Shown: one piece after another, positions 7,768 to 14,492 of the stretch
Position numbering within the stretch: the first letter of the stretch is position 1
Layout of the letters: each line of letters starts with the position of its first letter
DNA from: Bacteroidota bacterium
GTDB lineage: Bacteria > Bacteroidota > Ignavibacteria > UBA10030 > SZUA-254
Assembly: GCA_020056225.1 (NCBI GenBank)
Contig: JAGVIE010000029.1
Location: 1 to 41,578 of the forward strand
DNA: 41,578 nt
Reading direction: 5' to 3'
Notes under the pieces: model-generated
Told to the model about the DNA's origin: nothing
What the model saw: only the letters and a program-made list of their open reading frames with translations
Database searches by the model: none
Position numbers and translations under genes: made by a program

Positions 7768-9396
7768 TTATAGGGGAAACAATAAACGAATAGTAGTGCC
7801 TTTTCCTACCATACTATTAATTTCAATGGATCCTTTATGATCGTCCATTATTTTTTTTACGATTGCCATGCCCAATCCAGTACCGTGTTTTTTTCCACTC
7901 GTAAAGAATGGTTCGAAAATTTTGGTTTTAACCTGTTCGGACATGCCTTTGCCATTATCGATAAACTCGATTACCAGATGAGCGTCCGACTTAAACGCTT
8001 TCACAATAATTTTACCACCCTTTTCCATGGCATCTGCCGCATTGCCGGTGATATTATACAACACGCGGAGAAATTTTTCAGGGTCGATTTTGATATTGTC
8101 ACGGTACTCTAATTTTGTTTCAATATTAATATCGTGTCTCATCATCTCTTTTTCAATTATCAGCATCAAGGTATCCATCAACTCTCCAAAGTTAACATTC
8201 TCGAAATTGATGGAAGAGATCCCGCGTGCAAAATCTAATATCTCTTGAGTCATGGCAATGAAACGATCGGTCTGCCGGATTATATCGTCGGCAAATTTTT
8301 CTATCTCCTGGTCATCCGCCCTCGATTTAATCACTTGCGCAGAAAGCCGTAGAACCCCCATTGGATTTTTGATATCATGAATAATTGTGCTCGCCATTCT
8401 CCCCACTGCCGAAAGCCTCTCGTTCTGAACCATCCGCTGGGCAAGCTGCGCATTTTCAATAGCCAGTGCGGCATGAACAGAGAACGCCTCTATAAATTCT
8501 TCATCTTCACGGGTGAACATTCCCTCCGTTTTATTTAGGAGTTGGAATACTCCGATGGTTTTATCGTTTCTATTTTTCATCGGCATACAGAGTGTCGCTC
8601 TTGTACGATAACCGGTAACTTGATCTATCTCTTGATTGAATCTCGGGTCATTGTATGCATCCTCGATGTTGATGGTTGTTCCGGTAGCCGCAACGGTGCC
8701 GGCGATTCCAACTCCCATCGGCAGTCGAATCTCTATTCGCGAAGATCCTTTTTGTACTTTTGACCACAATTCTTTCTTCGCCTCGTCAATAAGATACAAT
8801 GTACCTCTATCCGCGCCAACGGTCCGCGCAGCCGTCTGAAAAATTAGATCAAGCAATTGGTCGACATCGAGCGATGAATTAACAATCTTCGAAGCGTCCA
8901 CAAGCTGGCGTGTTTTGGCAAGTTGCTGTCGCAGTGTGATAAGATTAGATTCTTGATGTTGAACGTATGTAAGGTTATTTGTTCTTAGCCTCAGCGTCAC
9001 CATGTGCAGGAGATTCAAAGCAAAGGTTTGGCTTGTTTCCAGAAGTATATCAAAATCTTTCTTGTTAAGTTTTCCAAGGACACAATCGCCTATCGCGGTA
9101 GCTTGAGCAGAGCGATGCTGTTGGTCTATCAAATCCAATTCACCGAAGAAATCTCCAGAATGAAGAATCCCAAGTACTATTTCTTCTCCCGTTCGCAGTT
9201 GTTTCGATATCTTAACACTTCCGGAAAAAACAAGAAACAGACACTCACCTATGCTGTCATCCTGAAAAATAACTTTTTCATCCGCGAACTTAATTTCTTT
9301 TAATGTCAATAGGATTGTTTGTATGATAGGTTCTTCCACAGACTGGAAAAGAACATTTGACCGCACCCTCTCATAAAGCGTATATTTGTTCGTCAT
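7768..9396 (-). CDS. Sensor histidine kinase with cNMP-binding and GAF domains
   Basis: The protein (542 aa from ATG at 9396) has no clear membrane segment and is likely a cytoplasmic sensor. Domains in order: a cyclic-nucleotide-binding/Crp-like barrel (about 15-120, with FSGSVKI and GDFFGELDLID), a linker helix, a GAF domain (about 172-320, with GADRGTLYLID and IGVFQLLNK), HisKA dimerisation with H-box IHDIKNP (phosphorylated His about 340), and HATPase_c with N-box NITGNAADAM, G1 DNGKGMS and G2 GTGLGMA. There is no receiver domain and no response regulator next door, so the partner is unknown. The upstream in-frame extension to 9447 encodes a hydrophobic stretch but lies outside the conserved domain. 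It is divergent from the repeat protein at 9527. Confidence 0.9.
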   Translation of the reverse strand: MTNKYTLYERVRSNVLFQSVEEPIIQTILLTLKEIKFADEKVIFQDDSIGECLFLVFSGSVKISKQLRTGEEIVLGILHSGDFFGELDLIDQQHRSAQATAIGDCVLGKLNKKDFDILLETSQTFALNLLHMVTLRLRTNNLTYVQHQESNLITLRQQLAKTRQLVDASKIVNSSLDVDQLLDLIFQTAARTVGADRGTLYLIDEAKKELWSKVQKGSSRIEIRLPMGVGIAGTVAATGTTINIEDAYNDPRFNQEIDQVTGYRTRATLCMPMKNRNDKTIGVFQLLNKTEGMFTREDEEFIEAFSVHAALAIENAQLAQRMVQNERLSAVGRMASTIIHDIKNPMGVLRLSAQVIKSRADDQEIEKFADDIIRQTDRFIAMTQEILDFARGISSINFENVNFGELMDTLMLIIEKEMMRHDINIETKLEYRDNIKIDPEKFLRVLYNITGNAADAMEKGGKIIVKAFKSDAHLVIEFIDNGKGMSEQVKTKIFEPFFTSGKKHGTGLGMAIVKKIMDDHKGSIEINSMVGKGTTIRLLFPL

Positions 9397-9526
9397 AATG
9401 GTATAAATAATAAAAAAACTGAGGCTCAGAGTCAAGCAAACACGCATTTGCCGGGTGAAACATTCATCATCCTACATCGTACTTTTCTAATAGGTATATA
9501 TACTAATGATATGAATCAGGAATAGC

Positions 9527-11353
9527 ATGCGTTTTCAACCATATTTCCCTCAAAAAATATCCTTCTTTATCATAGGGATTTCATCGATTCTGCTGTTATT
9601 TTCGAGTGTTCGAGCCGATGAACGTCTTATAATACAACTGAAGGATTTCTCTCAGATTGAAATCAAAGCCGGTGGGTTTATACTGCCGTCTGACGCGCGC
9701 ATTCACATTTATGCTCTCGGAGGCGGGACAGGAAAAAAATATGTCTTCCAATCCTCATCGATGTACGCATACGGCTGGATCATCAATGCCGATACGCGCG
9801 AACTAATCTGGAAAATGGATCGTTACAACACCACAAAGGAAAATAATTATCAAAAATTCGACGACCAGGTTTTCCTGCCAAAGGGCAGCTACGAAGTGTA
9901 TTATGCCGCCTATGGTTATGCTTCGAATTCTGCTCTAACAAATTTTAATTTCAACATCGACCGTCGCCGTGATTATAATAATGAAGACCAAAACCGAAAT
10001 GGATTCTTATCCTGGCTGGAAGAATTATTCGGCGGCGAGATGAGAACCGACTGGAAGCGCATGGCAAAAAACTGGGAGATATCGTTATCAGTCGACAAGG
10101 ATACAAAAGAAATCCCGACATTTAAACCTACCAAGCAATTCTTGAACATCGTATATAAAGCTGTCCCGCTGGGTGAGACTGTACACATCAAACAGCGATT
10201 CAAAGTTCTTGCCGCAACTCCGATACGTATTTACGCGCTCGGAGAAAAAGATAATCAGGATGCTCTTGCCGATTACGGCTGGATCATAAATATGAAAACT
10301 CATAAGCGTGTCTGGGAAATGCGCGCGGGTAATGTAAACAGCGCCGGTGGAGCGGATAAAAATATTAAATTTGACGAGGTCGTTAACTTCCCTGCCGGAG
10401 ATTATCTTCTCTATTATAATACCGACGATTCACATTCATACGTCGATTGGAATTCCGCGCCCCCCATCGATCCTTTCAACTACGGCATCACGATGACGGT
10501 ATCCGACAGCCAAAAGATTAACGATTTCAAACTAATGACTACCAGCACTGAAGAACAGAACGTCGTTGCCCAACTGACCAAACTGAGCGACGATGAAACA
10601 CGCAGTACAAGCTTCACACTCATAGAAGAAACCGCTCTTCGTATTTATGCCATAGGTGAACGAAGCAATTCATACCGTCAATTAGCTGATTACGGCTGGA
10701 TAATAAACACAAGAACACGAGAAAAAGTCTGGACAATGGATGCCGACAGAACAGAACGGGCAGGCGGCGCAGATAAGAACCGCATGATAGACGAAGTTAT
10801 CACGCTACCGAAAGGAACATACACAGTCTTCTTTCAAACCGACGACTCACACTCATATTATGATTGGGATTCTTCCCCACCGGCAGACGCCGAACATTGG
10901 GGAATTACCATTTATGGCGAGGGCGATGAATTCAACATGAAGAACGTCGAGAAAAATGTTGCCGACAAACAGCCCGGAGTTATCGCACAGATAGTGCGGG
11001 TTGGCAATAATGCATCAAGAACTCAGCAATTCAAGTTAGATAAAACTGCGCGTGTGCGAATTTACGCGCTTGGTGAAGGACAGAACCGCGAGATGTTCGA
11101 TTACGGATGGATAGAGAATGGATCGACACATAACGTAGTATGGGAAATGACATACTCGATGACTTTTAACGCTGGCGGCGGAAAGAAAAATCGCTCTGCA
11201 TCGACTACATTATTGCTCGATAAAGGCAGTTATATCTTACATTTTGTATCGGATGATTCACATTCATTTAATCATTGGAACACCGATCCGCCCGATGATC
11301 CTTCTATGTGGGGAATTACAATTTACGAAGATCAACAACAACATGGAGATTGA
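9527..11353 (+). CDS. Exported protein with four copies of an unrecognised ~115-aa repeat
   Basis: The 608-residue protein has a signal peptide (residues 1-30, cleavage after SVRA) and a Shine-Dalgarno (AGGA) before ATG 9527. Four tandem domains of about 115 residues (about 31-145, 206-325, 345-463 and 484-600) share RIYALGE, then YGWI (DYGWI in the last three), then V/I-W-x-M, then AGGAxKN, LPKGxY, and TDDSHSYxDWxSxPP...WGIT. The first copy is the most divergent and lacks the DDSHS block. Between copies 1 and 2, DQNRNGFLSWLE (154-165) matches a 12-residue EF-hand calcium loop with Glu at position 12. I do not recognise the repeat. The next gene starts 4 nt after the stop and encodes an outer-membrane barrel, so a periplasmic or surface location is likely. 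Function unknown. Confidence 0.88.
   Translation: MRFQPYFPQKISFFIIGISSILLLFSSVRADERLIIQLKDFSQIEIKAGGFILPSDARIHIYALGGGTGKKYVFQSSSMYAYGWIINADTRELIWKMDRYNTTKENNYQKFDDQVFLPKGSYEVYYAAYGYASNSALTNFNFNIDRRRDYNNEDQNRNGFLSWLEELFGGEMRTDWKRMAKNWEISLSVDKDTKEIPTFKPTKQFLNIVYKAVPLGETVHIKQRFKVLAATPIRIYALGEKDNQDALADYGWIINMKTHKRVWEMRAGNVNSAGGADKNIKFDEVVNFPAGDYLLYYNTDDSHSYVDWNSAPPIDPFNYGITMTVSDSQKINDFKLMTTSTEEQNVVAQLTKLSDDETRSTSFTLIEETALRIYAIGERSNSYRQLADYGWIINTRTREKVWTMDADRTERAGGADKNRMIDEVITLPKGTYTVFFQTDDSHSYYDWDSSPPADAEHWGITIYGEGDEFNMKNVEKNVADKQPGVIAQIVRVGNNASRTQQFKLDKTARVRIYALGEGQNREMFDYGWIENGSTHNVVWEMTYSMTFNAGGGKKNRSASTTLLLDKGSYILHFVSDDSHSFNHWNTDPPDDPSMWGITIYEDQQQHGD
11345..11348 (+). promoter_or_regulatory. 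Ribosome binding site fixing the start of the barrel gene
   Basis: GGAG lies 9 nt before ATG 11358 and overlaps the last codons of the upstream repeat-protein gene. It selects this ATG, which begins a good signal peptide, over the ATG at 11343 and the far-upstream in-frame starts. It also implies translational coupling of the two genes. Confidence 0.7.
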
Positions 11354-11357
11354 TATT

Positions 11358-12797
11358 ATGTTTCGCAACGGATATTATTTATTACTCTCTGCTTTATTTG
11401 CAATAATTTCTCCGATGACCATTTCTGCTCAAGAAGAGGAACACAACAGCAAATTTCACGATCAAATAGACTCGATTGTAGAAAAGACCCTCCATCGTTT
11501 CGATGAAGAACTCGGAACTTATATATTCAGAGATGAGCCATCGGTTAATGAAGATGTCGAAGAATCACGATATGCAGATGACGATAATTCCACATCTATT
11601 TATGATGATCATACCACGAAGCACATGCCACTTTACACAACAACCTTATCCAGCTTCGATAATAATAGAGGTGTAGCACGAAATGTTTTCCCAATATTTC
11701 CATGGGAATCTCTCGATGATAATTTTCTGTTCAGATATAATCGTGTTGAGGGGTTGTTCCTCGGATTGAACTATCCTCAAAAATATTATTGGGAAGATAG
11801 AAGGATAACAATGTTTGGTTCCGGTGGTTATGGATTTGCCGATCACCGATGGCGCGGTGGGCTTGGAATAGCACAACAATTCGGAGCCGATAACAGTATT
11901 TTTGAAATAGGAATAGAGGGACACAGCCTTACCGATACTCGCGATCAGTGGCTTGTTGGTATCGGTGAGAATAATGTTGCCGCCCTCCTCTTACGCGACG
12001 ACTATCGTGATTATTTTGGCAGAGCCGGATTTTCCGTATGGTCGGGCTGGTATAAACGGTGGCTCCGTTCAGATTTTCAATTTCAACTTGCATATCTAAA
12101 CGATCAGTACGAATCGCTTGACCGGCATACCAACTGGTCGGTGTTCGGCGGAAATAAAATATTCCGGGATAATCCTTCCATCCCCGAAGGGAAGATGAAA
12201 AGTATTCTGACATCGATAAAATTTCATTCTACCCAATCCAGAAAAATATTCACAACTGGATGGAGTTTAGCGGCAAGCGCCGAAGTTGCGGGTAAATCTT
12301 TCGGCGGTGATTACGATTTCAATTCGTATTGCATTGATATCCGGCGCTACCAGCCAATCAGCGATTACGATGTCATTAATATCAGATTGCGTGCTGGTTC
12401 AGCAACAGGTGACGTTCCCATGCAAAAGGCATTCGATCTTGGCGGTTTCAGTACGATACCTGCATTCAGGTTTAAAGAATTCACCGGCAACAGAATGCTT
12501 TTAGCCAACGTAGAATATGTTATCAACGGCAAAATGCTCGACGATGTTGAGTTCTTCCCATCGTGGCTTCTGCGCAATTTGAATATTATACTTTTTGCTG
12601 ATGCTGGATATGTCGGCTCAGCGAAATCGACAGATACTTTCACTGAAGGATTCAGTGATATCAATTCCAAAACGATTCACTCTGATTGGGGTTTTGGAAT
12701 AGGAACCCGCGATGCAAAGCTCCGCCTGGGATTCGCCTGGCGAACCGATCAATCCGGACCTCCGATGGTGTTCGTTCGTTTAAACAGACCGTTCTAA
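11358..12797 (+). CDS. Outer-membrane beta-barrel, Omp85/D15-like, no POTRA domain seen
   Basis: The 479-residue protein has a signal peptide (MFRNGYYLLLSALFAIISPM...ISAQ) and an acidic, low-complexity region to about residue 100. A barrel of alternating polar and aromatic strands follows, opening with FRYNRVEGLFLGLN. The later parts resemble the surface-antigen (BamA/TamA-type) barrel: FDLGGFSTIPAFRFKEF, a strand with LLANVEYVING, LFADAGYVG, and a C-terminal Phe as used for barrel insertion. No periplasmic POTRA repeats fit into the roughly 100-residue N-terminal part. It is translationally coupled to the four-repeat exported protein, suggesting they act together at the outer membrane, perhaps for anchoring or secretion. 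That link is inference from gene order. Confidence 0.8.
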   Translation: MFRNGYYLLLSALFAIISPMTISAQEEEHNSKFHDQIDSIVEKTLHRFDEELGTYIFRDEPSVNEDVEESRYADDDNSTSIYDDHTTKHMPLYTTTLSSFDNNRGVARNVFPIFPWESLDDNFLFRYNRVEGLFLGLNYPQKYYWEDRRITMFGSGGYGFADHRWRGGLGIAQQFGADNSIFEIGIEGHSLTDTRDQWLVGIGENNVAALLLRDDYRDYFGRAGFSVWSGWYKRWLRSDFQFQLAYLNDQYESLDRHTNWSVFGGNKIFRDNPSIPEGKMKSILTSIKFHSTQSRKIFTTGWSLAASAEVAGKSFGGDYDFNSYCIDIRRYQPISDYDVINIRLRAGSATGDVPMQKAFDLGGFSTIPAFRFKEFTGNRMLLANVEYVINGKMLDDVEFFPSWLLRNLNIILFADAGYVGSAKSTDTFTEGFSDINSKTIHSDWGFGIGTRDAKLRLGFAWRTDQSGPPMVFVRLNRPF

Positions 12798-12935: not shown

Positions 12936-14492
12936 TTGAGTGTGCAAATTTTATTACTCCAATACAGGCATAGAGTCCGACTTAGAGTCGGACTCTACAT
13001 CTTGCTGTTTACTATTTTCAACGGCGTATTATTATTCGCTCAAGACAGCTTATTCATAACTCGCTCCGGCTCATCTCTTTCTCTTGGCAGTAAACCTTTT
13101 TATACGGTGGGCGTCAATTGTTACTATCTTCAGAATTTAGCCGCATACGGTGATACCGTCCACCTCATTGAGATATTTCAAGAAGCGAAGCTGCTCGGTG
13201 TAACAACAATCCGCACATGGGGATTCTTCGATTCACCAGACAGCGCAAATCCGGCTGTTATACAATTCGCACCTGCCCGATATAATGAACGAGGTTTGAA
13301 AGCTCTTGATTATGTCATCTCGAAAGCGAAAGAATATTCAATCCGGCTTCTCATACCGCTTGTGAATAACTGGGAAGATTATGGCGGCATGAATCGGTAC
13401 GTTAGTTGGTATGCGAATCAATTCCCCGCATCAATAAAGACTTCGAAGCAAATTCAACAGAAAATTATTCAAGGTGTGGAAGGAAGACTCTATCGATTTC
13501 ACGTTTCCGGTTCTCTTACCCACGATGATTTTTATACAAACACCACCATACGGCAATGGTACAAAGATTATATCTCAATGCTTATAAATAGAATTAATAC
13601 GGTTACAAACATTCAATACAAAAACGAGCCGACAATTCTCGCATGGGAACTCGCCAACGAGCCGCGGTCATCAGATCCTACCGGTGCAATTGTTGAACAC
13701 TGGTTAGATGAAATGTCGGCTTATTTAAAATCAATCGACAACAACCATCTAATCTCGACCGGTGAAGAGGGGTTGGATATTTCGGATAACGGTTACAGCA
13801 ACGCGCGTTCATACAACGATCAGTCGTGGCTGTTCGATGGGTCTGGCGGGATTTCTTTTCGCCGTAATATTTCACTCCCGAACATCGACATTGCCAGCAT
13901 CCACTCTTATCCCGATGCGTGGGGATTGACGGGCCACCACGGAATACTGTGGCTCACCGATCATAATCGAATTGCCAATGAAGTCCGGAAACCGTTGATC
14001 CTCGGAGAAGCGGGCAAGTGGTCCCAGAGAAACTTTTATTTCGACGCGCTTCTGAATGAAATATATTTCAGTACAACTGCCGGCGTTTTACTCTGGCAAT
14101 TCGTGTACGACGGACGTATAAATAATGACGGTTACGCATTCGCCTATCCTGCCGATAGAGCCTTATGCGACATCCTTCAAAAATACGCGCTCCGGTTTTC
14201 AACGAAGGGAGATAATAATACTCTCCCATCCAGAACCGAACTTTTTCCAAACTACCCTAATCCCTTCAACAATGTCACGCTTATCTCTTACAACTTATCA
14301 ATATCAACGCATGTCCGGCTTATTGTTTACGACGCATCGGGGAGATCGCTTGCCACACTTGTCAATCAGCCGCAGCCGCCGGGCCATCACCTTGCATTGT
14401 TTGATGCAGGTGGGTTGAGTAGTGGTGTCTATTTCATCCGGCTCATTGCCGGATCAAATAACGACAGTCGAAAAATGCTTTTATTAAAATAA
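12936..14492 (+). CDS. Exported GH5 glycoside hydrolase (beta-mannanase-like) with T9SS tail
   Basis: The 518-residue protein has an Arg-rich n-region and signal peptide ending near FAQ (residue 36), a TIM-barrel GH5 domain (about 50-420) and a T9SS C-terminal domain (about 435-518: FPNYPNPFNNVTLISY ... GVYFIRL ... KMLLLK). Catalytic residues of retaining GH5 enzymes are visible: acid/base Glu242 in ELANEPR, His323 in HSYP, and nucleophile Glu358 in LILGEAG. The overall pattern is closest to endo-beta-1,4-mannanases (GH5_7), but the substrate is inference. No ATG fits; TTG 12936 or GTG 12942 must start it. A perfect 11-bp inverted repeat (12971-12997) lies in the signal-peptide codons. The protein is expected to be displayed on or released from the cell surface. 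Confidence 0.9.
   Translation: MSVQILLLQYRHRVRLRVGLYILLFTIFNGVLLFAQDSLFITRSGSSLSLGSKPFYTVGVNCYYLQNLAAYGDTVHLIEIFQEAKLLGVTTIRTWGFFDSPDSANPAVIQFAPARYNERGLKALDYVISKAKEYSIRLLIPLVNNWEDYGGMNRYVSWYANQFPASIKTSKQIQQKIIQGVEGRLYRFHVSGSLTHDDFYTNTTIRQWYKDYISMLINRINTVTNIQYKNEPTILAWELANEPRSSDPTGAIVEHWLDEMSAYLKSIDNNHLISTGEEGLDISDNGYSNARSYNDQSWLFDGSGGISFRRNISLPNIDIASIHSYPDAWGLTGHHGILWLTDHNRIANEVRKPLILGEAGKWSQRNFYFDALLNEIYFSTTAGVLLWQFVYDGRINNDGYAFAYPADRALCDILQKYALRFSTKGDNNTLPSRTELFPNYPNPFNNVTLISYNLSISTHVRLIVYDASGRSLATLVNQPQPPGHHLALFDAGGLSSGVYFIRLIAGSNNDSRKMLLLK
12971..12997. repeat. Perfect inverted repeat in the signal-peptide codons of the GH5 gene
   Basis: TAGAGTCCGAC (12971-12981), the 5-nt loop TTAGA, and GTCGGACTCTA (12987-12997) form a perfect 11-bp stem beginning 35 nt into the coding region. 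The repeat encodes the Arg-Val-Arg-Leu-Arg-Val-Gly stretch of the signal-peptide n-region. It could fold in the mRNA and affect initiation, or be a small inserted palindrome. Confidence 0.85.

Follow-up and report, generated by a model that had tools for sequence, protein, structure and literature searches.

What is the repeated domain of an exported-looking protein that is encoded next to an outer-membrane barrel, and do the two proteins belong together? The question is raised by a stretch of DNA from a Bacteroidota bacterium, the 41,578 nucleotides of contig JAGVIE010000029.1 (assembly GCA_020056225.1), which is contig 3 of a 3.5-Mb genome and is referred to here as the window. The genes, designated REP (repeat protein) and BAR (barrel), follow each other on the forward strand; their features are listed in Table 1. 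REP is built from a domain that is unnamed in the libraries searched, and BAR is a barrel from a known superfamily, Omp85, in an unusual context. The association of the two is real but facultative and is often absent. We consider it an even bet that REP is an exported, multivalent protein binding a ligand of the cell envelope, with BAR as an optional partner in the outer membrane.

REP matched no Pfam or NCBIfam family above cut-off, and no significant sequence match to solved structures in the Protein Data Bank (PDB) was found. When 26 single units were scanned against the Pfam and NCBIfam libraries, no family was returned either, chance-level matches being common to at most two of the 26. 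The original prediction, made from the letters of the window, that the repeat is undescribed has thus withstood profile searches with the whole protein and with single units. No further copies were found in the window's genome outside REP at E 0.01. Units 2, 3 and 4 share 39–44% identity over 122–125 aligned residues and the repeats are therefore not a product of chance. Unit 1 is 27–29% identical to units 2–4; its profile, built from 61 proteins, matched the unit profile with 99.8% probability (E 8e-30, hhalign) and, judged by profile, it is clearly related to the canonical units. It retains mainly the W, I, G-Y and L positions and has lost the E, the first D, GG, K, N, the second D and the H; YG and the last G are kept in about half of the 61 proteins (the last G in 29). 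Four repeats stand as predicted, with a domain length of ~123 residues in place of the proposed ~115 and a spacing of 139 and 137 residues in the window; the motifs said to be shared by all four (GE, D-Y-G-W, AGGxxKN, DDSH) are limited to units 2–4. The predicted signal peptide is probable as well: the hydrophobic N-terminus reads by eye as a Sec signal. Lipoprotein anchoring was considered and rejected: a lipobox-like motif occurs in 3 of the 81 REP proteins described below, and that of the window is not among them.

Relatives are encoded by 424 of the 448 stretches obtained when genome contigs were scanned with a 33-row alignment. From these 424 the best 80 were retained and form, together with the window, the set of 81 REP proteins; other layouts may exist. 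Open reading frames (ORFs) were called with our own script and some short neighbours may be spurious. The taxon labels of the best 80 comprise Ignavibacteria, Bacteroidetes, Calditrichota, Zixibacteria, KSB1, Gemmatimonadota, Krumholzibacteria, Latescibacterota, Acidobacteriota and a few others. All 81 proteins (571–745 aa) carry four units, a weak first one and three strong ones. The spacing of the GGxxKN motif is 138 and 137 residues in 40 of the 81, and in the remaining listed proteins it deviates by a few residues or because of a single longer insertion. Residue counts were made on the 61 proteins that were taken into the alignment. In all of their 183 canonical units the E, D, GG, K, N, D, H and last G are identical, corresponding in unit 4 of the window's REP to E517, D525, GG550-551, K554, N555, D576, H579 and G596 (precursor numbers). 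In 27 canonical units from nine more distant proteins, the E, the first D and the second D are each present in 26, and the N and the H in 25.

Some peculiarities of individual relatives may be added. Many REPs of one Ignavibacteria-type group (L074–L083, L085, L086, L099, L108, L109) carry proline-rich C-terminal tails; the window's REP does not. The labels of the metagenome-assembled genomes (MAGs) of L122 (Caldisericaceae), L123 (Deltaproteobacteria) and L124 (Actinomycetota) clash with the REP tree, which groups them with Calditrichota REPs, so that these are probably mislabelled or contaminated bins, or cases of transfer. In the KSB1 genome L182 a lone REP unit adjoins a Peptidase_C14 (caspase) ORF on a contig that is interrupted by an assembly gap, and the two are possibly one protein split by the gap.

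The unit also occurs outside REP. Out of 198 Bacteroidota genomes, 34 carry units, in 26 cases within ORFs of REP size (451–694 aa). Single units were found in 14 ORFs of 1194–1327 aa, distributed over 10 of the 34 genomes, two of which also contain REP (our own tally). Thirteen of these long ORFs were fetched (L141, L143–L152; 1194–1322 aa), and the six that were scanned with Pfam all contain Reg_prop and Y_Y_Y domains above cut-off, three ending in SpoIIE and three in histidine-kinase domains. The hosts of the single REP unit are thus Reg_prop/Y_Y_Y periplasmic sensors of the kind found in Bacteroidota, with the unit as an extra domain, which Pfam does not name. On inspection by eye, the unit is flanked on both sides by propeller repeats. 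All 13 fetched sensor copies retain the E, both D, the second G, the K, N and H, and also the last G; the first W is found in 10 of them and the first G in 7. Given its wide distribution and its presence within periplasmic sensors, the unit probably has a recognition target in the cell envelope. The L143 sensor is preceded by an anti-sigma-type ATPase and a STAS-type protein (read by eye), and SpoIIE partner switching is therefore likely at that locus.

The AlphaFold2 model of REP, computed from 61 sequences, is of high confidence and mostly beta, with a mean predicted local distance difference test (pLDDT) score of 90.7 and a predicted TM-score (pTM) of 0.85. In the predicted strand order the invariant E ends one strand and the first D starts the next, while KN stands at the start of a later strand, DxxH ends the strand after it and the last G starts the last one. 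VIA matched the unit to beta-sandwiches of the PPC, CUB and GOLD types at Z up to 7.9. Several CUB chains among the Foldseek matches gave Z 6–8 and the PPC structure 5sv5 gave Z 7.9 over 91 residues, values in a range that, according to the tool, may reflect a common arrangement only. Foldseek with the whole REP model returned 7 chains at E ≤0.001, headed by 5iku, a tandem collagen-binding domain (E 5e-5), with TM-scores of at most 0.26; PPC and collagenase collagen-binding domains are among the best single-domain structural matches of the unit. None of the 26 units had a Pfam match to CUB (PF00431) or PPC (PF04151), and membership in either family by sequence was rejected on this basis and on that of the profile comparison given below.

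A likeness to CUB1 of C1s, likewise a beta-sandwich, can be drawn as an analogy only. According to the parts of PMC4222235 that deal with it, the calcium site of C1s CUB1 includes E45, D53, D98 and S100; a lysine of the ligand is contacted by E45, D98 and S100, and D53 is indispensable for the site. The unit's E, D and D-x-S follow the same order, the E-to-D spacing being 8 residues in unit 4 and 9 and 10 residues in units 2 and 3 (by eye). It differs from C1s CUB1 in having no detectable sequence homology to it and in its extra invariant GG, N, H, W and P. As to the EF-hand-like loop DQNRNGFLSWLE that had been noticed in unit 1, the letters do read like one, but the acidic residues are not conserved in the 33-row alignment, and the model shows a low-confidence loop (mature residues 121–128) followed by one helix (130–150) instead of helix-loop-helix. 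The EF-hand was therefore abandoned.

BAR scored 34.9 bits with the Pfam Omp85 family PF01103 (cut-off 24), and no significant sequence match to solved structures was found. Its model, computed from 14 sequences, shows a low-confidence tail and, from residue 98 on, 16 strands by our count, a number also found in BamA. Foldseek returned BamA and TamA at E ~1e-10, and VIA gave Z 21.4 to yeast Sam50 (303 residues, 4.5 Å), ~20 to TamA and 18–19 to BamA. No POTRA family matched BAR, and mature residues 16–95 (pLDDT <50) form no folded domain in the model. The PF01103 score, the strand count, the structural matches and the lack of a folded N-terminal domain all bear out the original prediction of a POTRA-less Omp85-like barrel. 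A resemblance to the DUF5686 (PF18939) barrels is weak to good among BAR relatives, three of the six scanned being above cut-off; the window's BAR itself, with a partial match to the 669-position model, remains below it (20.9 bits, cut-off 39.2).

Most BAR relatives from Calditrichota-type loci and from other families of the order are longer and have a bactofilin-like N-terminal domain, which occupies the position of POTRA. By eye the domain is present in 17 of 19 BAR loci (L163–L172, L174–L179, L181) and absent from L173 and L180; among four Calditrichota-type BARs (L116, L122, L126, L135) PF04519 was above cut-off in one and weak in three. Two Calditrichota-type BARs also gave ShlB-family scores, that of L122 above cut-off. 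In L163–L165, L167–L172, L175 and L181 the gene for the BAR with the bactofilin-like domain has a fixed neighbour of its own, a PdxJ-like gene (by eye) in divergent orientation. POTRA-less Omp85 subfamilies, including 'noNterm', are known (Heinz and Lithgow 2014, PMC4104836), and as far as the consulted sections of that review describe them, BAR is like these in its Omp85-type barrel, its lack of POTRA and its expected outer-membrane location. It differs in its linkage to REP and in having relatives with a bactofilin-like N-terminal domain; section 10 of the review names no subfamily with such a domain. Set against the definition of noNterm, BAR has no folded N-terminal domain but does have a ~95-residue tail holding a predicted helix. 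No paper containing both 'Omp85' and 'bactofilin' was found in the literature searched, and searches for the sensors and for Omp85 in these phyla gave nothing that could be tied to the repeat.

The presence of both genes was tabulated in 60 genomes of the family and order, a close BAR being defined by our own cut of E <1e-60. REP was found in 47 of the 60, fragmentary matches included (46 residues in G021, 130 in G040, two pieces in G043), and a close BAR in 39. The two genes are adjacent in 13 of the 28 genomes that hold both, all belonging to two families, f1 and f2. Around the 81 REP genes, BAR is the commonest neighbour family with 14 loci, 10 downstream and 4 upstream; this count and that of 13 among 60 genomes are not independent, many loci being the same MAG contigs as the genomes counted. 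The next families, asparaginase-like (13 of 81) and pseudouridine-synthase-like (11 of 81; names given by eye), were met only in Ignavibacteria-type loci. What distinguishes BAR from them is that its linkage recurs in reversed order, BAR-then-REP instead of REP-then-BAR, in Calditrichota-type loci. The notion of REP and BAR as a pair of neighbours has thus survived as a recurrent linkage; an obligate pair was rejected by the presence table and, with adjacency in 13 of 60, fails by the refuting condition that came with the original prediction, homologues being rarely neighbours. Nor is BAR generally required for REP, because 19 of the 47 REP-bearing relatives are without a close BAR.

On the REP tree the 8 downstream cases included fall within one 19-protein Ignavibacteria-type group, beside 11 proteins without BAR, and two changes are required to account for the 4 upstream cases. 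More distant REP loci led to 16 genomes, REP-bearing by choice, of which 8 contain BAR at E <1e-100 and 4 have the two genes adjacent. No BAR stood beside REP in nine loci from other Bacteroidota classes (L142, L153–L160). Three of the upstream cases (L122, L126, L135) have a Toastrack gene after BAR and REP, the intervals between the genes being -1 to 18 bases. Toastrack adjoins REP in 5 loci, namely these three and two more in which it precedes REP, and it adjoins BAR, with REP elsewhere, in two genomes; six of the 7 Toastrack ORFs found were profile seeds, only that of L124 being new. The consulted parts of PMC11237479 link Toastrack to envelope stress responses, propose that it assembles envelope-stress complexes and consider it intracellular. 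The likeness of our loci to such Toastrack/DUF4097 partners consists in their being gene neighbours of REP or BAR; the copies beside REP differ by their export-signal-like N-termini (by eye). In L117 and L132, labelled Krumholzibacteria and Latescibacterota, the gene after REP overlaps it by 4 bases and encodes a glycine-rich 'VGGIGVG' repeat protein of 315–335 aa, for which no Pfam family was found.

In the reading that we prefer, REP would be an exported envelope protein made of undescribed beta-sandwich recognition domains, and the nearly invariant polar cluster of three of its units (E, D, N, D and H, with GG and W) would be a binding site in which a divalent cation probably has a stabilising role. 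Metal stabilisation would be in keeping with a set of E, D, D and N together with H. REP would have three binding sites for a single kind of envelope ligand, be it an oligomer, a polymer or repeated sites on proteins, on whichever side of the outer membrane it may reside, and the single unit of the propeller sensors would be their ligand-reading part. BAR would most likely serve as an optional outer-membrane platform that holds REP, possibly by direct contact, or that aids REP in reaching or crossing the outer membrane. The unnamed domain, with its unusually rigid signature, its many phyla labels and its use in sensors as well as in a protein whose layout is constant, offers a direct lead to an unrecognised envelope ligand. 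BAR extends the set of POTRA-less Omp85 proteins, with relatives that show a bactofilin-like domain in the POTRA position, and if its link to REP is physical, the two provide a small system for asking what such proteins do.

A number of observations weigh against this reading. By presence alone the genes show no association, since 28 of the 60 relatives have both, 19 only REP, 11 only BAR and 2 neither. In 15 of the 28 with both they are apart, that is, on another contig or, in G043, 178 kb away (the surroundings of the distant BAR were read in 10 of the 15). BAR's lead over the other neighbour families is narrow (14 loci vs 13 and 11) and a single origin of the BAR-then-REP order is possible. 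Among the 27 distant units only 10 have the K of the motif, and variation extends to the last N of WN, so that neither can be essential to a universal site, and in the distant protein L158 the cluster is largely lost in two of three units. That the E, D, KN, DxxH and last G all lie at the same end of the sandwich is argued from the strand order of the model. The BAR model is of moderate confidence (mean pLDDT 68.9). The fold match to CUB and PPC may be only common arrangement, and profile comparison by hhalign revealed no homology of the unit to 11 bacterial CUBs (1.3%; 7 shorter partial matches, L189–L193, L197 and L198, were left out of this profile) or to PPC, for which all 10 sequences found were used (0.8%).

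These figures bear on the alternatives, the likelihoods of which overlap and need not sum to one. The most serious of them, although unlikely on balance, is that REP and BAR are co-regulated and physically unlinked, being two separate envelope proteins whose genes belong to a single regulon for stress or maintenance and share an operon for convenience. It agrees with their separation in most genomes, with other neighbour families nearly as frequent within Ignavibacteria, and with the Toastrack neighbours, given the connection to envelope stress that part of PMC11237479 describes for this domain; the close linkage of the genes, in opposite orders in two groups of phyla, is harder to reconcile with it. 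An analogue of two-partner secretion, in which BAR is a dedicated translocon exporting REP to the surface as TpsB does TpsA, is less likely. Coupled neighbouring genes in both orders, an Omp85-superfamily barrel and the ShlB-family scores of the two Calditrichota-type relatives would all fit such a system, yet so many REP-bearing relatives lack a close BAR, REP has no known secretion domain in the Pfam and NCBIfam scans, and BAR is without POTRA, which TpsB proteins carry.

Next in order, and doubtful, comes the idea that REP is a divergent CUB- or PPC-type protein missed by the libraries, which would be compatible with the function that we favour. PPC, CUB and GOLD sandwiches being the best structural matches, with 5iku on top, and the match of E, D and D-x-S to the order of the C1s CUB1 calcium-site residues, as given in part of PMC4222235, speak in its favour; a best Z of 7.9 does not exceed the range of common arrangement, and the profile probabilities for CUB and PPC contrast with the 99.8% obtained between the unit and unit 1 of REP. 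Improbable, and the lowest in our ranking, is a role of BAR as a minor barrel for outer-membrane protein assembly or lipid handling in which REP replaces POTRA or the bactofilin-like domain in trans. The REP-adjacent BARs of f1 and f2 do lack the bactofilin-like domain that the relatives in other families have kept, but long BARs with this domain also adjoin REP in Calditrichota-type loci, a short BAR without it lies apart from REP in G036 (L173), and REP is more widespread than the short BAR. The preferred reading can itself be taken further. The unit would then be a new and widespread, cation-dependent envelope recognition domain, analogous to calcium-binding CUB domains without common descent, and REP, as a three-site scaffold on BAR (in some phyla with Toastrack), and the sensors, with the unit as head and SpoIIE partner-switching or histidine-kinase output, would respond to the same ligand in an undescribed module for outer-membrane surveillance. 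We regard this extension as speculative, ranking it behind co-regulation and ahead of the other three alternatives.

Table 1. Features of the REP-BAR locus, in window positions.
Feature	Position	Strand	Description or basis
REP gene	9527..11353	+	ORF, 608 codons/aa; exported-looking; four tandem beta-sandwich domains
REP probable Sec signal peptide	9527..9616	+	cleavage after ...SVRA; read by eye
REP unit 1, degenerate	9617..10102	+	without the invariant polar cluster; extra helix
DQNRNGFLSWLE, proposed EF-hand-like loop, unsupported	9986..10021	+	not conserved; low-confidence loop, then single helix
REP unit 2, canonical	10136..10510	+	model, alignment, conservation, spacing
REP unit 3, canonical	10550..10927	+	model, alignment, conservation, spacing
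REP unit 4, canonical	10964..11332	+	alignment, conservation, spacing
GGAG, ribosome-site-like, for BAR	11345..11348	+	within the last codons of REP; sequence
BAR gene, POTRA-less Omp85-family outer-membrane barrel	11358..12797	+	PF01103 score; structure matches
BAR mature N-terminal tail	11433..11717	+	short helix, then acidic low-confidence (probably disordered) stretch; pLDDT <50 at model residues 16-95
BAR 16-stranded barrel	11724..12794	+	model residues 98-454; our strand count omits two three-residue strands

The two genes are closely spaced. REP ends with TGA at 11351–11353, and the likely ATG of BAR at 11358 lies four bases past this stop, with the GGAG nine bases 5' of it, in agreement with the predicted start 4 nt on and the predicted ribosome site inside REP. 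Overlapping initiation from an alternative in-frame ATG at 11343, 11 bases inside REP, is possible. Downstream of BAR, positions 12936–14492 encode a GH5-like glycosidase with a type IX secretion C-terminal domain. On the other side of REP, a divergent gene on the minus strand (7768–9447) encodes a cNMP-binding/GAF/histidine kinase protein, and kinase ORFs matching it were found near REP in 9 of the 81 loci, the window included.

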